Assembly (NCBI GenBank): GCA_023701125.1
Contig: JAMPXO010000035.1
Location: forward strand, 1-41,124
DNA: 41,124 bases
Direction: 5' to 3'
DNA from: Vicinamibacteria bacterium
Lineage (GTDB): Bacteria > Acidobacteriota > Vicinamibacteria > Fen-336
Shown here: positions 4,321 through 12,888 of the stretch, piece by piece
Layout: every line of letters begins with the position of its first letter
Position numbering within the stretch: position 1 is the first letter of the stretch
Notes under the pieces: generated by a model
Databases searched by the model: none
Told to the model about the DNA's origin: nothing
What the model saw: the letters and a program-made list of their open reading frames with translations, nothing else
Program-made: the position numbers and the translations under genes

Positions 4321-6734
<2,414 letters not shown>

Positions 6735-6738
<4 letters not shown>

Positions 6739-9152
6739 AGCGAACGGTGCGGGCCGCGGCCCTCGCGGCCCTCGTGTACGGGCGAGCCCTGTACGCGCAG
6801 GTGGAGCCCGAGGGACCGCTCGTCGAGCGGGTCGACATCCAGGGCAACCAGTTCATGCAGAAGGACACCCTTCTGTTCTACGTCCAGACCAAGGTGGGCG
6901 AGCGGCTGGACGAGCTGAAGCTCAAGGAAGACTTCCGCCGGCTGTGGGACACGGGCTTCCTGGAGGACATGAGCCTGCAGGTGCTCGACGGGCGCCAGGG
7001 CAAGGTGGTCGTCTTCCGCGTCCAGGAGCGCAAGCGGGTCCAGATCGTCGACTACCGCGGCACCAAGGCGATCACCACCTCGAACATCGAGGAGAAGCTG
7101 AAGGAGAAGGAAGCGCAGCTCCGGATCGACAGCTTCTACGACCTGGCCAAGGCGCGCCGCGTCGAGACGCTGATCAAGGAGATGCTCGACGAGAAGGGCA
7201 AGCCCTTCGCGACGGTCACCCACACGGCGCGCACGCTGGGCGGCGCGGGGGTGCAGGTCACGTTCACGATCGACGAGGGCCCCAAGGCCAAGGTCAAGAG
7301 CATCTCCTTCACCGGCAACGAGCGCTTCGCCGACGGCAAGCTGCGCGGCCAGATGAAGTCGATCAAGCAGACGGGTTTCTGGAACCTGACCTGGCTGCTG
7401 GGCAAGACCACCTACACCCGCGAGAAGTGGGGCGAGGACCAGGAGAAGATCCGCGAGTTCTACCTGAACCACGGCTACGTGGCGGCCCAGGTGGGCGAGC
7501 CCAGGCTCAGCTACACCGACGGCAAGTCGGGCTTCTTCAAGAAGAAGCCGATCAAGCAGGTCCACGTCGAGATCCCGGTCACCGAGGGCGACCAGTACCG
7601 CGTCGGCGACATCAAGGTCGACGGCATGACCGTCTTCCAGTCCGACCGCATCCTGCCGATCTTCAAGATCAAGAGCGGCGAGATCTACAACGACTCGCGG
7701 ATCAAGAAGGGCTACGAGAAGCTGCGCGACGCCTACGGCGCGCAGGGCTACTTCCAGTGGACGGCGCTGACCCAGCGCAAGCCGGACCCCGAGCGCAAGG
7801 TCGTCGACCTGGTCCTCAAGATGGAAGAGGACAAGCGCTACTTCGTCGGCCGCATCAACTTCACGGGCAACGAGACCACCCGCGACAAGGTGATCCGCCG
7901 CGAGGTGTACCTGACCGAGGGCGACGTCTTCAACACGGAACTGCTCAAGCTCTCGATCAAGCGCATCAACCAGCTCGGCTACTTCAAGCCGATGGAGGGC
8001 ATTCCGCAGCTCAGCCAGAGCCCGCTCGGCGACGACAAGCTCGACGTCACGTTCAAGGTCGAGGAGCAGAACCGCAACCAGTTCACGTTCGGCGGCGGCG
8101 TGTCCGGGCTGGAGGGCGCGTTCATCAACGCCGCGTTCTCGACCTCGAACTTCCTCGGCCTGGGCGAGACGTTCTCGGTCTCGGCCCAGAGCGGGCGCCG
8201 GACGAAGGTCTACCAGGTCGCGGTCACCGAGCCGTACTTCCTGGACCGGCCGATCACCGCCGGCGTCGACATCTACAGGCGGCGGCTGGAGTACCAGACC
8301 TACTCGGGCGAGAACCTGCAGGGCTACATCGACGACCGCACCGGCTTCAGCCTGGTGTCGGGCGTGCCGCTCGGCCGCTTCTCTCGGCTGTTCGCCTCGT
8401 ACGCGTACGAGGTGATCAAGATCGAGATCTCGGACGACGTGATCGACCCCGACCAGATTTTCGACCCCACGCTGCCGATCATCCCGAACAACCCGTTCCA
8501 GGAAGACCTCGGCAAGCGCCGCGAGAGCCGGCTGACGCCGTCGCTCGTCTACAACACGGTCGACAACCCGTACACGCCGCGCGCGGGCTGGAAGATCACC
8601 GCCACCACCCAGCTCACGGGCGGGCCGCTGGGCGGCACCCTCGACTACATCCGCCCCAGCTTCGAGACGATCTACTACAAGCCGCACCTGCGGAAGACGG
8701 CGCTCGGCCTGCGCGCGGAAGCCGCCTACATCAAGCCGTTCAACGAGACCGCCGAGCTCAACGCGACGAACGGCCTGCCCAACCTGCCCTTCTACCAGCG
8801 CTTCTTCATGGGCGGCGAGAACCAGATCCGCGGCTACAACCTGCGCACGGTCGGGCCGCGCGACGCCAACGGCTACGCGATCGGCGGCAACAAGTCGCTG
8901 CTGTTCAACGCCGAGTACTACTGGGACATCGCCGGCCCGCTGCGCTTCCTGTTCTTCTTCGACGCCGGCCAGGCGTTCCTGGAAGGCGAGTCGTACAAGA
9001 TCAACGAGTTGCGCACGTCGACCGGGGCCGAGCTGCGCTTCATCATGCCCGTGCTCAACGTGCCGTTCCGGCTGATCTACGCCTGGAACCCGCACCGCGA
9101 CGAGTTCCAGCCCAAGACCACGTTCAAGTTCGCCGTCGGGACCACGTTCTGA
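6735..9152 (+). CDS. bamA: Outer membrane protein assembly factor BamA
   Basis: Central Omp85-family subunit of the BAM complex, inserting beta-barrel proteins into the outer membrane. The start is ATG 6735, overlapping the clpC stop. The 805 residues begin with a signal peptide (about 1-22, ending ALYA). About five POTRA repeats follow (about 26-440), with recurrent KV-x-I/V-F-x-G-N-E patterns such as ISFTGNERF and INFTGNETT. The 16-strand surface-antigen barrel has the conserved loop-6 motif QIRGY (about 697). The protein ends in phenylalanine (FAVGTTF), the expected terminal beta-signal. skp follows after 25 nt, as in most diderms. Confidence 0.97.
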
Positions 9153-9177: not shown

Positions 9178-9813
9178 ATGACGAAGAGCCTGACCCTGCT
9201 GCTGCTTGTCGCGGCGCCCGCCGTGCTCGCGCAGGAGCCTGCCGCCGCGGGGCTGCCCGCCAAGGCGCCCAAGATCGCCGTCATCGACATGACGCGGGTG
9301 TCGAACGAGAGCCTGCTTGGCAAGAGCTACGCCCAGAAGCTCGAGAACCTGCAGAACGAGATCGGCGCCGAGGCCACCAAGAAGCAGAACGAGCTGACCA
9401 AGCTCGACACCTCGATCAAGACGCTGCGCGAGGAACTCGAAAAGCAGGCCAACGTGCTCTCGCCCGAGGGCGCCGAGAAGAAGCAGCAGGAGATCGTCAA
9501 GAAGACCCGCGATCGCCAGGCCTTCGTCGAGGACTCGCAGGCCGAGCTGGGCCGCATGCGCGAGCGCGCGCAGCAGCAGGCCCAGCAGTACAACAACGAG
9601 TTCCAGCTCAAGGTGCGTCCGATCGTCGAGGCCGTGGCCAAGGAGAAGGGCGTCGACATCCTGATCGACTCGCAGGCCGCGCTGGCGGTGACCAAGGACT
9701 ACGACATCTCGCGCGACGTGATCGTCAAGGCCGACGATGCCGAGCGTGCGGCCAAGCCGAAGCCGGCGGCGGCCCCCGCGGCTTCGCCGGCGGCCTCGCC
9801 GGCGGGCAAGTAG
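9178..9813 (+). CDS. skp: OmpH/Skp family periplasmic chaperone
   Basis: Periplasmic holdase that binds unfolded outer-membrane proteins on their way to BamA. The ATG follows a good Shine-Dalgarno sequence (AAGGAGA, about 9168-9174). The 211 residues start with a signal peptide (about 1-18, cleavage after VLA). The segment KIAVIDMTRVSNES is the first strand typical of OmpH, and a long charged heptad-rich coiled coil (about 50-150) forms the Skp tentacles. The C-terminus is a low-complexity Ala/Pro tail of about 20 residues, unusual for the family but common in GC-rich genomes. It lies directly after bamA and before a terminator. Confidence 0.94.
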   Translation: MTKSLTLLLLVAAPAVLAQEPAAAGLPAKAPKIAVIDMTRVSNESLLGKSYAQKLENLQNEIGAEATKKQNELTKLDTSIKTLREELEKQANVLSPEGAEKKQQEIVKKTRDRQAFVEDSQAELGRMRERAQQQAQQYNNEFQLKVRPIVEAVAKEKGVDILIDSQAALAVTKDYDISRDVIVKADDAERAAKPKPAAAPAASPAASPAGK

Positions 9814-9894: not shown

Positions 9895-11148
9895 ATGCAG
9901 ACGATCGACATCGGCCGGCTGATCCGCCAGATCCCCAGCCAGTACCCGTTCGTGCTGGTGGACCGGGTGCTGGACCACGACCAGGCCGGCCTGCGCGCGA
10001 TCAAGGGCGTGACCGGCTCGGAGGAGTTCTTCGAGGGCCACTTCCCGGGCGCGCCGGTGATGCCGGGCGTGCTGATCCTCGAGAGCCTGGCGCAGGCGGC
10101 CGGCATCTGGCTGCTCAACGAGGCGAAGGACCCGAGCCTGCTCGAGGTCCACGTGGTCGGCATCGACGGCGCCAAGTTCCGGCGCCAGGTGGTGCCCGGC
10201 GACCGGCTCTCGATCGACGTGCGCGTGCTGCGCCGCCACGGCGACCTGTGCAAGGTGCGCGGCGAGGTGCGCTGCGAGGACGCGCGGGTCGCCGAGGCCA
10301 CCTTGTTCCTGCGCGTGGCCGAGGTGCCGCGCTCCGAGGTCGACCCCACGGCCAGGGTCGCACCGGGTGCCGTGCTCGGAGCGGGCGTCCGGGTCGGCCC
10401 CTATTGCGTGATCGGGCCGCACGTCGAGGTCGGCGACGGCACCGTGCTCGAGTCCCACGTCGTGCTCGCCGGCCACACCCGGATCGGCCGCGACAACCGT
10501 TTCCTGCCGTTCGCCACCGCGGGCCTGGTGCCGCAGGACCTCAAGTACCACGGCGAGCCGTCGCGGCTGGAGATCGGGGACCGCAACACGTTCCGCGAGT
10601 TCTGCACCCTGCACATCGGCACGGCGGGCGGCGGCGGCGTCACCCGCGTCGGCTCGGACAACCTGGTGATGGCCTACGCCCACGTGGCCCACGACTGCCA
10701 GGTCGGAAGCCATGTGATCTTCGCCAACCACGCGGCGCTGGCCGGCCACGTCGAGGTCCAGGACTGGGCCACGATCGGCGCCTACTCGGGCGTGCACCAG
10801 TTCTGCCGGGTGGGCACCCACGCCTTCATCGGCGGCGGGACGATTGCGACCCAGGACGTGCTGCCGTACTCGAAGACGGTGGGCAACCGGGCCTGCCTGT
10901 TCGGCGTCAACACCGTCGGCCTGCAGCGCCGCGGGCTCGACCGCGAGCAGATCGCGGCCGTGCGCCAGGCGTTCCGGCTGTTGATGTCGACGAAGCTGTC
11001 GACCTCGCAGGCGCTGCAGCGAATCGAAGCCGAGTGCCCGGCCACGCCGGAGATCGACACCCTGCTCGCCTTCGTGCGCGAGAGCGAGCGCGGCGTGATC
11101 ACCCGCCGGCGTCGCGCCGGCGGGGCCGAGGACGAAGCCGAGGACTGA
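9895..11148 (+). CDS. Fused FabZ (3-hydroxyacyl-ACP dehydratase) and LpxA (UDP-GlcNAc acyltransferase)
   Basis: A single 417-residue frame joins two enzymes that compete for R-3-hydroxyacyl-ACP. Residues 1-142 are a hot-dog-fold FabZ with the catalytic pair in GHFPGAPVMPG (His49) and ESLAQ (Glu63), 14 residues apart as in E. coli. Residues from about 143 are a left-handed beta-helix LpxA with hexapeptide repeats. Its catalytic base is His266 in AYAHVAHDC (E. coli His125), and His301 in VHQFC matches His160. Gly314 aligns with E. coli Gly173, the hydrocarbon-ruler residue, suggesting a long (C14-like) acyl chain. No stop or frameshift lies at the junction. The start has GAGGAGG upstream with only a 1-nt gap. 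An lpxD gene, often found between skp and fabZ, is absent here. Confidence 0.95.
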   Translation: MQTIDIGRLIRQIPSQYPFVLVDRVLDHDQAGLRAIKGVTGSEEFFEGHFPGAPVMPGVLILESLAQAAGIWLLNEAKDPSLLEVHVVGIDGAKFRRQVVPGDRLSIDVRVLRRHGDLCKVRGEVRCEDARVAEATLFLRVAEVPRSEVDPTARVAPGAVLGAGVRVGPYCVIGPHVEVGDGTVLESHVVLAGHTRIGRDNRFLPFATAGLVPQDLKYHGEPSRLEIGDRNTFREFCTLHIGTAGGGGVTRVGSDNLVMAYAHVAHDCQVGSHVIFANHAALAGHVEVQDWATIGAYSGVHQFCRVGTHAFIGGGTIATQDVLPYSKTVGNRACLFGVNTVGLQRRGLDREQIAAVRQAFRLLMSTKLSTSQALQRIEAECPATPEIDTLLAFVRESERGVITRRRRAGGAEDEAED

Positions 11149-11152
11149 CCGC

Positions 11153-11965
11153 GTGGATCCCCTGGGGCTGATCGCCGGCAACGGCCAGTTCCCGTTCCTG
11201 CTGGCCCGCGCCGCCCGCCGCGACGGACGCCGGGTGGTGGCCCTCGCGATCCGCGAGGAGGCCTTTCCCGAGCTCGAGGCCGAGGTCGACGAGTGGCACC
11301 CGATCGGCCTCGGCCAGCTCGGCAAGGCGATCGCCACGCTGAAGGCCGCTGGCGTGCGCGAGGCCGTGATGGCGGGGCAGGTCAAGCATCGCCAGATCTT
11401 CGCGGGCATCGTGCCGGACCTGACGCTGATGGGCGTGCTGGCGCGGCTGGCCTTCAAGAACACCGACAGCCTGATCGGGGGCGTGGCCGACGCCTTCGAG
11501 CGCGAGGGCATCCGCCTCGCCTCGTCCGTGGAGCTGCTGTCGGACCAGCTCGCGACGCCGGGGCTGATGACTCGTCGCGGGCTGAGCGGCGACGAACGCA
11601 AGGACGTGGCGTACGGCACGCGGATCGCCCGCGTGCTCTCCGCCAACGACCTGGGGCAGACCGCCGTGGTGAAGTCGCAGGCGGCCGTGGCGCTGGAGGC
11701 GATGGAAGGCACCGACGAGGTGATCCGCCGCGCCGGTCGCATCGCGGGCCCCGGCTGCAGCGTGGTCAAGGTGGCCAAGCCCCGGCAGGACATGCGCTTC
11801 GACGTGCCCGTGGTCGGGCCGGGCACGCTGGAGGCGATGAAAGAGGCGCAGGCGCGGGTGCTGGCGGTGGAGGCCGGCCGCACGCTGCTGCTCGACCGCC
11901 CGGCGTTCCTGGCGGCGGCGGACGCGGCCGGAATCAGCGTCTTTGGCGTGGGAGAGGCCGAGTGA
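11153..11965 (+). CDS. lpxI: UDP-2,3-diacylglucosamine pyrophosphatase LpxI
   Basis: Converts UDP-2,3-diacylglucosamine to lipid X plus UMP in lipid A synthesis, replacing LpxH. The GTG start lies 4 nt after the fabZ-lpxA stop. The 270-residue length and both family halves (formerly DUF1009) are intact: N-terminal GLIAGNGQFPFLLA, central MAGQVKHRQIF, and the C-terminal catalytic segment VAKPRQDMRFDVPVVGPGT with Asp213 and Asp217. Family knowledge assigns the catalytic aspartate to this motif. Its position right after LpxA supports the assignment; lpxB and lpxD are not in the window. Confidence 0.94.
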   Translation: MDPLGLIAGNGQFPFLLARAARRDGRRVVALAIREEAFPELEAEVDEWHPIGLGQLGKAIATLKAAGVREAVMAGQVKHRQIFAGIVPDLTLMGVLARLAFKNTDSLIGGVADAFEREGIRLASSVELLSDQLATPGLMTRRGLSGDERKDVAYGTRIARVLSANDLGQTAVVKSQAAVALEAMEGTDEVIRRAGRIAGPGCSVVKVAKPRQDMRFDVPVVGPGTLEAMKEAQARVLAVEAGRTLLLDRPAFLAAADAAGISVFGVGEAE

Positions 11966-12888
11966 ACGAGACGATTCGGGTCGGCGTGGTGGGCACCGGC
12001 GCCCTCGGCCAGCACCACGCCCGCGTCTACGCGAACACCCCGGGGGCCCGCCTCGTCGGCGCCTTCGACCAGCTCCCGGGACGGGGCCAGGAGGTGGCGG
12101 AACGACACGGCGGCCGCGGCTTCGACTCGCTGGAGGCCCTGCTCGGAGAGTGCGACGCGGTGTCGGTGGCCGTGCCCACGATCGACCACCTCGCGGTGGC
12201 CCGGGCCGCGTTCGCGGCCGGCTGCGACGTGCTGGTGGAGAAGCCGCTGGCGCCCAGCCTCGCCGAGGCGGACGCGCTGATCGCGGCGGGCGAGGCGGCC
12301 GGCCGCATCCTGCAGGTGGGCCACATCGAGCGCTTCAACCCGGCGGCCGACCTGCTGTTCCGCGGTGGGGCGCCGCGCTTCATCGAGGTCCACCGCCTGG
12401 CGCCGTTCACCCCGCGCAGCCTGGACATCGATGTCGTGCTCGACCTGATGATCCATGACCTCGACATCGTCCTGGCCCTCGATGGCAGCGAGGCCGTCCA
12501 GGTCGACGCGGTCGGCGTCCCGGTGCTGACCCCGAAGGTCGACATCGCCAACGCTCGGCTTCGCTTCGCCTCGGGCCTGATCGCCAACCTGACGGCCAGC
12601 CGGGTCTCGGCGGAGAAGGTCCGCAAGTTCAGGGTGTTCCTGCCCCGGACCTACGTCTCGGCCGACTTCGTGGGCAAGGAGGCGGTGATCTACCGGCTCA
12701 ACGAGAAGGACGGCCAGCCGGACATCGAGGTCGAGCGGGGAACCGCCGCCAACGAAGAACCGCTGGCCCGGCAGTTGGCGGCCTTCGTGCGGTCGGTCGC
12801 CACCCGGACGGCGCCGGTCGTCTCGGGCCACGACGGCCGCCGGGCGCTCGCTCTCGCCGAGACGATCCTCGAGCGCATCCGCGGCTGA
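11962..12888 (+). CDS. Gfo/Idh/MocA-family NAD(P)-dependent oxidoreductase
   Basis: A 308-residue dehydrogenase with an N-terminal Rossmann fold (GVVGTGALG, residues 8-16), the family EKP motif (93-95) that positions substrate and nicotinamide, and a C-terminal alpha/beta domain with MIHDLDIV (His165). The GTG start overlaps the lpxI stop and follows GGAGAGG. The substrate is not evident. Because it is coupled to lpxA and lpxI, a UDP-sugar role such as the UDP-GlcNAc 3-dehydrogenase GnnA is conceivable. The aminotransferase partner GnnB is not nearby, so this is only a hypothesis. Gfo/Idh genes next to lpxA/lpxI recur in other diderm phyla, as far as I recall. Confidence 0.85.
   Translation: MNETIRVGVVGTGALGQHHARVYANTPGARLVGAFDQLPGRGQEVAERHGGRGFDSLEALLGECDAVSVAVPTIDHLAVARAAFAAGCDVLVEKPLAPSLAEADALIAAGEAAGRILQVGHIERFNPAADLLFRGGAPRFIEVHRLAPFTPRSLDIDVVLDLMIHDLDIVLALDGSEAVQVDAVGVPVLTPKVDIANARLRFASGLIANLTASRVSAEKVRKFRVFLPRTYVSADFVGKEAVIYRLNEKDGQPDIEVERGTAANEEPLARQLAAFVRSVATRTAPVVSGHDGRRALALAETILERIRG

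Follow-up and report, generated by a model that had tools for sequence, protein, structure and literature searches.

A fused fabZ-lpxA gene in most genomes of the bacterial class Vicinamibacteria

Introduction

Fusion of the dehydratase FabZ to an early enzyme of lipid A synthesis has been described with LpxC as the partner. Passages of PMC516016 reported an LpxC-FabZ fusion for Chlorobium tepidum and passages of PMC3087551 reported it for Bacteroidetes, Chlorobi and Verrucomicrobia. FabZ also competes with LpxA for (3R)-hydroxyacyl-ACP, which goes either to ordinary membrane lipids or to the start of the outer-membrane lipid. Passages of PMC12152623 stated that lpxA or lpxC mutants are reported to be suppressed by loss of fabZ function in several species, P. 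aeruginosa excepted. A lineage in which a single chain carries both competitors lets one ask, in a natural setting, whether their ratio matters and how such bacteria balance their two membranes.

A fused fabZ-lpxA gene (fabZ::lpxA) is described here from a window of 41,124 nucleotides, the whole stretch of DNA that was analysed, from a Vicinamibacteria bacterium (assembly GCA_023701125.1, contig JAMPXO010000035.1). A preliminary description of this DNA had set the fusion apart from LpxC-FabZ and called it less familiar, and the literature agreed: LpxC-FabZ was published, while no description of a FabZ-LpxA fusion was found in the portions of PMC text searched, where absence does not amount to absence in print. 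The term "fabZ-lpxA" in those portions referred to adjacent genes or to plasmid and strain names.

Results

The fused gene was a single forward-strand frame at positions 9895-11148 of the window which ran from ATG to TGA without an internal stop and encoded 417 amino acids, as confirmed by ORF, Pfam and NCBIfam searches and by relatives. The Pfam scan showed PF07977 at residues 13-135, Hexapep repeats and PF13720 at residues 321-402. The FabZ half (residues ~1-140, positions 9895-10314, +) was assigned from PF07977, from the FabZ model NF000582 (138.5 bits, cut-off 113, residues 6-138) and from Foldseek matches to 5buw and 6n3p; the fabZ model TIGR01750 scored 133.3 bits, under its cut-off of 155.15. 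The junction or linker (residues ~141-148, positions 10315-10338, +) was placed from the structure model and linker lengths. The LpxA half (residues 149-405, positions 10339-11109, +) was assigned from NF003657 (356.9 bits, cut-off 226, residues 147-405) and TIGR01852 (324.5 bits, cut-off 231.05), both covered in full, and from the E. coli LpxA alignment and a Foldseek match to 6p9p. An N-terminal LpxC domain was absent from the fusion, with NF009667 scoring 142 bits against 465 and the aligned part (320-461) being FabZ only.

Residues 8-261 of E. coli LpxA (1lxa) corresponded to residues 149-402 of the fusion in equal spans and the alignment with the E. coli chain 2jf2 was gap-free, in agreement with the offset of 141 residues given in the preliminary description. 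That description had also claimed that the junction is in frame and that both halves retain their catalytic residues; this was borne out by the single ORF with matches to both families and by the presence of H49, E63, H263, H266, H285, N339 and R345. H266 corresponds to the catalytic H125 of E. coli LpxA, and H263 and H285 to the conserved H122 and H144. The catalytic pair of His and Glu in FabZ is described in passages of PMC2698920. H49, E63 and H266 were invariant in two alignments of fusions that shared some members (25 of 25 and 38 of 38), and H263 and H285 were likewise invariant in the set of 38. When 84 distinct fused sequences were screened with a strict pattern, 79 showed both the FabZ and the LpxA motif. 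The misses were three sequences that were cut or frame-broken (L146, L157 and L158) and two with a Leu-to-Met change in the motif that retained the His and Glu (L101 and L131). From this conservation we infer that both halves are probably active in the fusion.

A survey of the class showed some match in 184 of 193 genomes and an unbroken FabZ-LpxA frame in at least 152 of the 193, the source genome included. The full-length matches listed (150) spanned both halves with 47-89% identity to the window protein, its own row apart; 147 were stop-free and three (G468, G473 and G483) had one stop beyond the end of LpxA. G199 and G379 had a stop-free fusion in the Acidobacteriota survey, which raised 150 to 152; G425 and G441 gave scores of full-length size outside the matches listed and are not in the 152. 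Two genomes of the same genus as the source (G404 and G405) carried the fusion at 89% identity.

The remaining 39 genomes comprised 10 of family f88, four of family f89 and 25 others. None of the 10 f88 genomes (G408-G417) had a match of LpxA strength and the four that were re-searched had FabZ-type matches only, from which loss of LPS in this family is possible. In family f89, fabZ and lpxA were separate in three of the four genomes (G418, G419 and G421), in different frames that can overlap by 4 nt, and G420 had a more distant free LpxA alone. All 25 other genomes were re-searched. Eight (G373, G398, G423, G430, G447, G464, G469 and G495) had a stop-free piece over the junction in a gene cut by a contig end, a frame break or a deletion, and in five (G348, G406, G429, G449 and G497) contig ends cut the gene so that the junction was unreadable. 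In G527, LpxA was preceded by sequence unlike FabZ near a contig end, and this genome could be a real exception. The other 11 lacked the fusion and showed no further LpxA match of that strength.

In the named GTDB collection, both domains were in one ORF in 41, and not in 39, of the best 80 of 565 relatives. The fused relatives were labelled Acidobacteria or Acidobacteriota, Vicinamibacteria, Vicinamibacterales, Vicinamibacteraceae and Luteitalea, with two labelled more loosely as Acidobacteriaceae and Acidobacterium sp. From these named relatives the surveyed class is taken to be Vicinamibacteria. No re-split of the fusion was proven within the fused clades in the class survey and re-searches. 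Separate genes in all close relatives, an outcome raised in the preliminary description, were not found: most close relatives were fused and separate genes were found only in f89.

Outside the class, 1508 genomes were searched: 350 Acidobacteriota (those left of 396 once the 46 members of the class were set aside), 349 from the phylum of a SAR86 record, 247 from that of a "Deltaproteobacteria" record, 247 from that of Paenimyroides and 315 from that of a Nitrospirae record. The E-value threshold was 1e-60 for the SAR86, "Deltaproteobacteria" and Paenimyroides phyla and 1e-80 for the Nitrospirae phylum, and scoring covered the top few candidates of each genome. No fusion was present among the matches listed, as all 152 two-half matches carried at least one stop (21 in Acidobacteriota, 42, 30, 18 and 41 in the SAR86, "Deltaproteobacteria", Paenimyroides and Nitrospirae phyla, respectively). 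A weakly similar fusion could be hidden outside the class, and these searches are strong but not complete evidence that the fusion is absent there. A triple LpxC-FabZ-LpxA fusion was considered for seven Bacteroidota frames of 552-823 aa and was rejected, as the HMM scan placed FabZ and LpxA in different ORFs. Overall, none of the 20 long-frame loci fetched (these seven and 13 from other groups) was fused in the HMM scan.

A quick tree of the joined FabZ and LpxA domains of 86 hand-picked rows placed 40 fused and three f89 rows on one branch (SH-aLRT 99), with the other 43 rows falling apart from it. A careful tree of 44 rows showed two fully supported fused clades and f89, with the branching order among them unresolved. 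Here, one of the fused clades took in f89 with weak support (76/29), which speaks against a single origin; the likelihood was slightly higher when all fused rows were held together (p-AU 0.6). One origin is not rejected by this test, and the trees are compatible with either one or two. In several other Acidobacteriota, fabZ and lpxA shared a frame and were parted by a single stop and a short gap. Where unfused loci were examined, the two genes were neighbours, often sharing a frame with one stop between them or overlapping by 4 nt, and either state would be a few mutations from fusion.

The linker between domain ends ranged from 7 to 20 residues and measured 7-9 in 70 of the 80 distinct sequences. 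The AlphaFold2 monomer (pTM 0.61) had block pLDDT of 91-96 over the junction, with the last FabZ strand reaching residue 143 (mean of 91 in block 141-150). The FabZ active-site loop was poorly modelled (pLDDT 62 in block 41-50), as were residues 316-336 (under 50) and the tail. The best PDB match in Foldseek was 6p9p for the LpxA half (52% identity, rmsd 6.1 Å) and FabZ 5buw for the FabZ half (39% identity, rmsd 3.2 Å). Passages of PMC2698920 described FabZ as a hexamer, a trimer of dimers, with its active-site loops held at the hexamer interface, and passages of PMC10863985 described LpxA as a homotrimer, so a threefold axis is common to both. The preliminary description had held that LpxA trimerisation must be reconciled with FabZ oligomerisation; with the shared axis, this difficulty is smaller than claimed. 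A FabZ hexamer of D3 symmetry would have three chains on each face, where an LpxA trimer could sit coaxially, and the fusion would perhaps assemble as a FabZ hexamer with two LpxA trimers.

The fused gene lay in a forward-strand cluster in the order Clp ATPase, bamA, skp/ompH, fabZ::lpxA, lpxI and gfo. On the 5' side were a Clp-type ATPase gene (4321-6738; Clp_N and AAA, no NCBIfam model over cut-off), bamA (6735-9152; POTRA and Omp85, TIGR03303 at 561 bits, over cut-off) and an OmpH/Skp-like gene (9178-9813; PF03938) directly upstream of the fusion. Downstream, lpxI (11153-11965; PF06230, PF17930, and NF047836 at 136.1 bits, the cut-off of 400 not reached) started 4 nt past the stop codon of the fusion. 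It was followed by a Gfo/Idh/MocA oxidoreductase gene (11962-12888), which overlapped lpxI and for which the nearest NCBIfam model was UDP-GlcNAc 3-dehydrogenase (185.7 bits, below the cut-off of 450). If this enzyme were of GnnA type, its place near lpxA would hint that lipid A contains a 3-amino sugar. All 41 fused loci from the named collection had lpxI next to the fusion and 40 had gfo as well, locus L083 ending before gfo; bamA, skp and the Clp gene occurred in many of these loci and were missing from others, some of which were too short to include them. In locus L097 (2015-8930), the fused gene was opposite in orientation to the lpxI, gfo, skp and bamA around it, which is either a local inversion or an assembly fault.

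Many unfused loci had an LpxD-like ORF, weakly matching the LpxA profile, directly upstream of fabZ. In the window, lpxD was not between skp and fabZ, as the gap there is only 81 nt. The lpxD of the source genome (G000) was on another contig (C166, L004) away from fabZ::lpxA, and its lpxC was a separate gene on a further contig (G000:C9).

A second, free LpxA was found in the source genome (L002 1495-2301, -, G000:C247), with 45% identity to the fused one and scores over cut-off on both LpxA models. In addition, a FabZ-like paralogue (L003 1387-1923, +, G000:C134) passed NF000582 and outscored the fused FabZ half on both FabZ models (147.3 vs 138.5 with NF000582, 138.1 vs 133.3 with TIGR01750). 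Its active-site motif had no His. Similar paralogues were present in other class genomes, and in eight paralogue sequences the Glu was kept and the catalytic His was absent (two) or shifted by one residue (six). With this free LpxA and FabZ-like paralogue, either half may share its role with another enzyme in the source genome. Further LpxA matches at 40-41% identity occurred in all four f89 genomes. A 2340-aa frame of the source genome (G000:C193:20279-22483; L006, L007, L010 and L011) carried four FabA-family domains, of which three scored over cut-off and one below; it resembles a subunit of a polyunsaturated fatty acid synthase, and frames like it were seen in other class genomes.

Discussion

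The class-wide FabZ-LpxA fusion is real and is a new form beside the published LpxC-FabZ fusions. On the sequence evidence, there is good reason to think that it is a bifunctional enzyme at the branch point of phospholipid and lipid A synthesis, and that the adjacent genes fabZ and lpxA merged into one within Vicinamibacteria. The FabZ half would dehydrate (3R)-hydroxyacyl-ACP and feed chain elongation, and the LpxA half is predicted to transfer the acyl group to UDP-GlcNAc on the lipid A side. Since both activities use the same substrate, the most that the fusion can do is set how many sites of each kind there are and where they lie. There would be no channelling; the two sites would compete for one substrate and be kept equal in number and close together, possibly in a FabZ hexamer capped on both faces by an LpxA trimer, and lipid A flux would be controlled further along the pathway, for example at LpxC, which is known as the main control point in E. 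coli. The joining of FabZ to LpxC elsewhere and to LpxA here suggests functional coupling around the branch point. Automatic annotation may name the fusion after one enzyme, which would make the other look missing.

Nearly as much weight as an even chance would carry is given to a neutral fusion, one with no regulatory or catalytic consequence that persists since splitting a fused gene is hard. The unfused genes are already neighbours, often separated by one in-frame stop or overlapping by 4 nt, and the source genome has a free LpxA as well. One origin is not rejected, so inheritance alone could explain the persistence. The narrow range of linker lengths (7-9 residues in 70 of 80) and the lack of any proven re-split in fused clades argue against neutrality, but folding constraints or inheritance could also explain both.

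A stronger regulatory version of the bifunctional enzyme, in which 3-hydroxyacyl-ACP meets both competing sites at a fixed 1:1 ratio on a two-headed particle (a FabZ hexamer core with LpxA trimers on its two faces) and the split between phospholipid and lipid A becomes insensitive to the levels of FabZ or LpxA, is unlikely. If it were true, most of a bacterial class would balance its two membranes in a way unlike E. coli. The fixed 1:1 ratio put forward in the preliminary description is not assured in strict form here, given the second, free LpxA and the FabZ-like paralogue, and any effect of such a ratio on the split between phospholipid and lipid A is hypothetical.

It is improbable that the FabZ half is a decayed scaffold with another dehydratase doing its work. 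The half has drifted, as it falls under the TIGR01750 cut-off with 133.3 bits while the unfused f89 FabZ scores 186.1, and the paralogue that outscores it on both models in the source genome has counterparts in other class genomes. Its catalytic His and Glu are invariant, however, whereas the His is absent or displaced in the eight paralogues. Moreover, the fused gene was the sole PF07977 match in G159, G237, G261 and G301, genomes of 94-98% completeness and so not fully complete, in a search of 192 class genomes at E up to 1e-6 which covers the FabA/FabZ family and not unrelated dehydratases.

Slightly less probable still is that free LpxA is also made from the fused gene, through translation that begins internally close to the former lpxA start, or through cleavage of the chain. 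The source genome does have an in-frame TTG and GTG near the junction, but 27 of 77 distinct junction windows had no in-frame ATG, GTG or TTG, and a Shine-Dalgarno-like motif, itself a weak test, stood at such a codon in 2 of 77. Unfused controls, in a somewhat wider window, had a start codon in 86 of 86 and the motif in 17 of 86. A lost stop or indel at the junction from sequencing or assembly, which the preliminary description had wished to see checked, is ruled out for practical purposes by the relatives, since a fault in one assembly cannot explain the same fusion in two congeneric genomes and across the class; the window by itself would not have been enough to dismiss it.

A close described counterpart of this probable bifunctional enzyme is the bifunctional LpxC/FabZ (NF009667/PRK13188), in which FabZ is likewise joined to an enzyme that acts early in lipid A synthesis and is encoded next to it in the operon. 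There the partner is LpxC and FabZ is C-terminal, whereas here the partner is LpxA and FabZ is N-terminal; in the loci of LpxC/FabZ type that were seen, with FabZ as the C-terminal part of a long ORF, lpxA was a separate ORF. Compared with the FabZ structures 5buw, 6n3p and 4h4g, the fused half shares the hot-dog fold and the His/Glu pair but has LpxA in place of the C-terminal tail. The LpxA half has 51-52% identity to E. coli LpxA (1lxa, 2jf2 and 6p9p; Foldseek) and keeps its active-site residues at an offset of +141, but differs in the FabZ at its N-terminus and in V341 in place of Glu. The separate fabZ and lpxA of E. coli type, also found in f89, encode the same two enzymes in the same order but on two chains, which in most Vicinamibacteria genomes surveyed are one.
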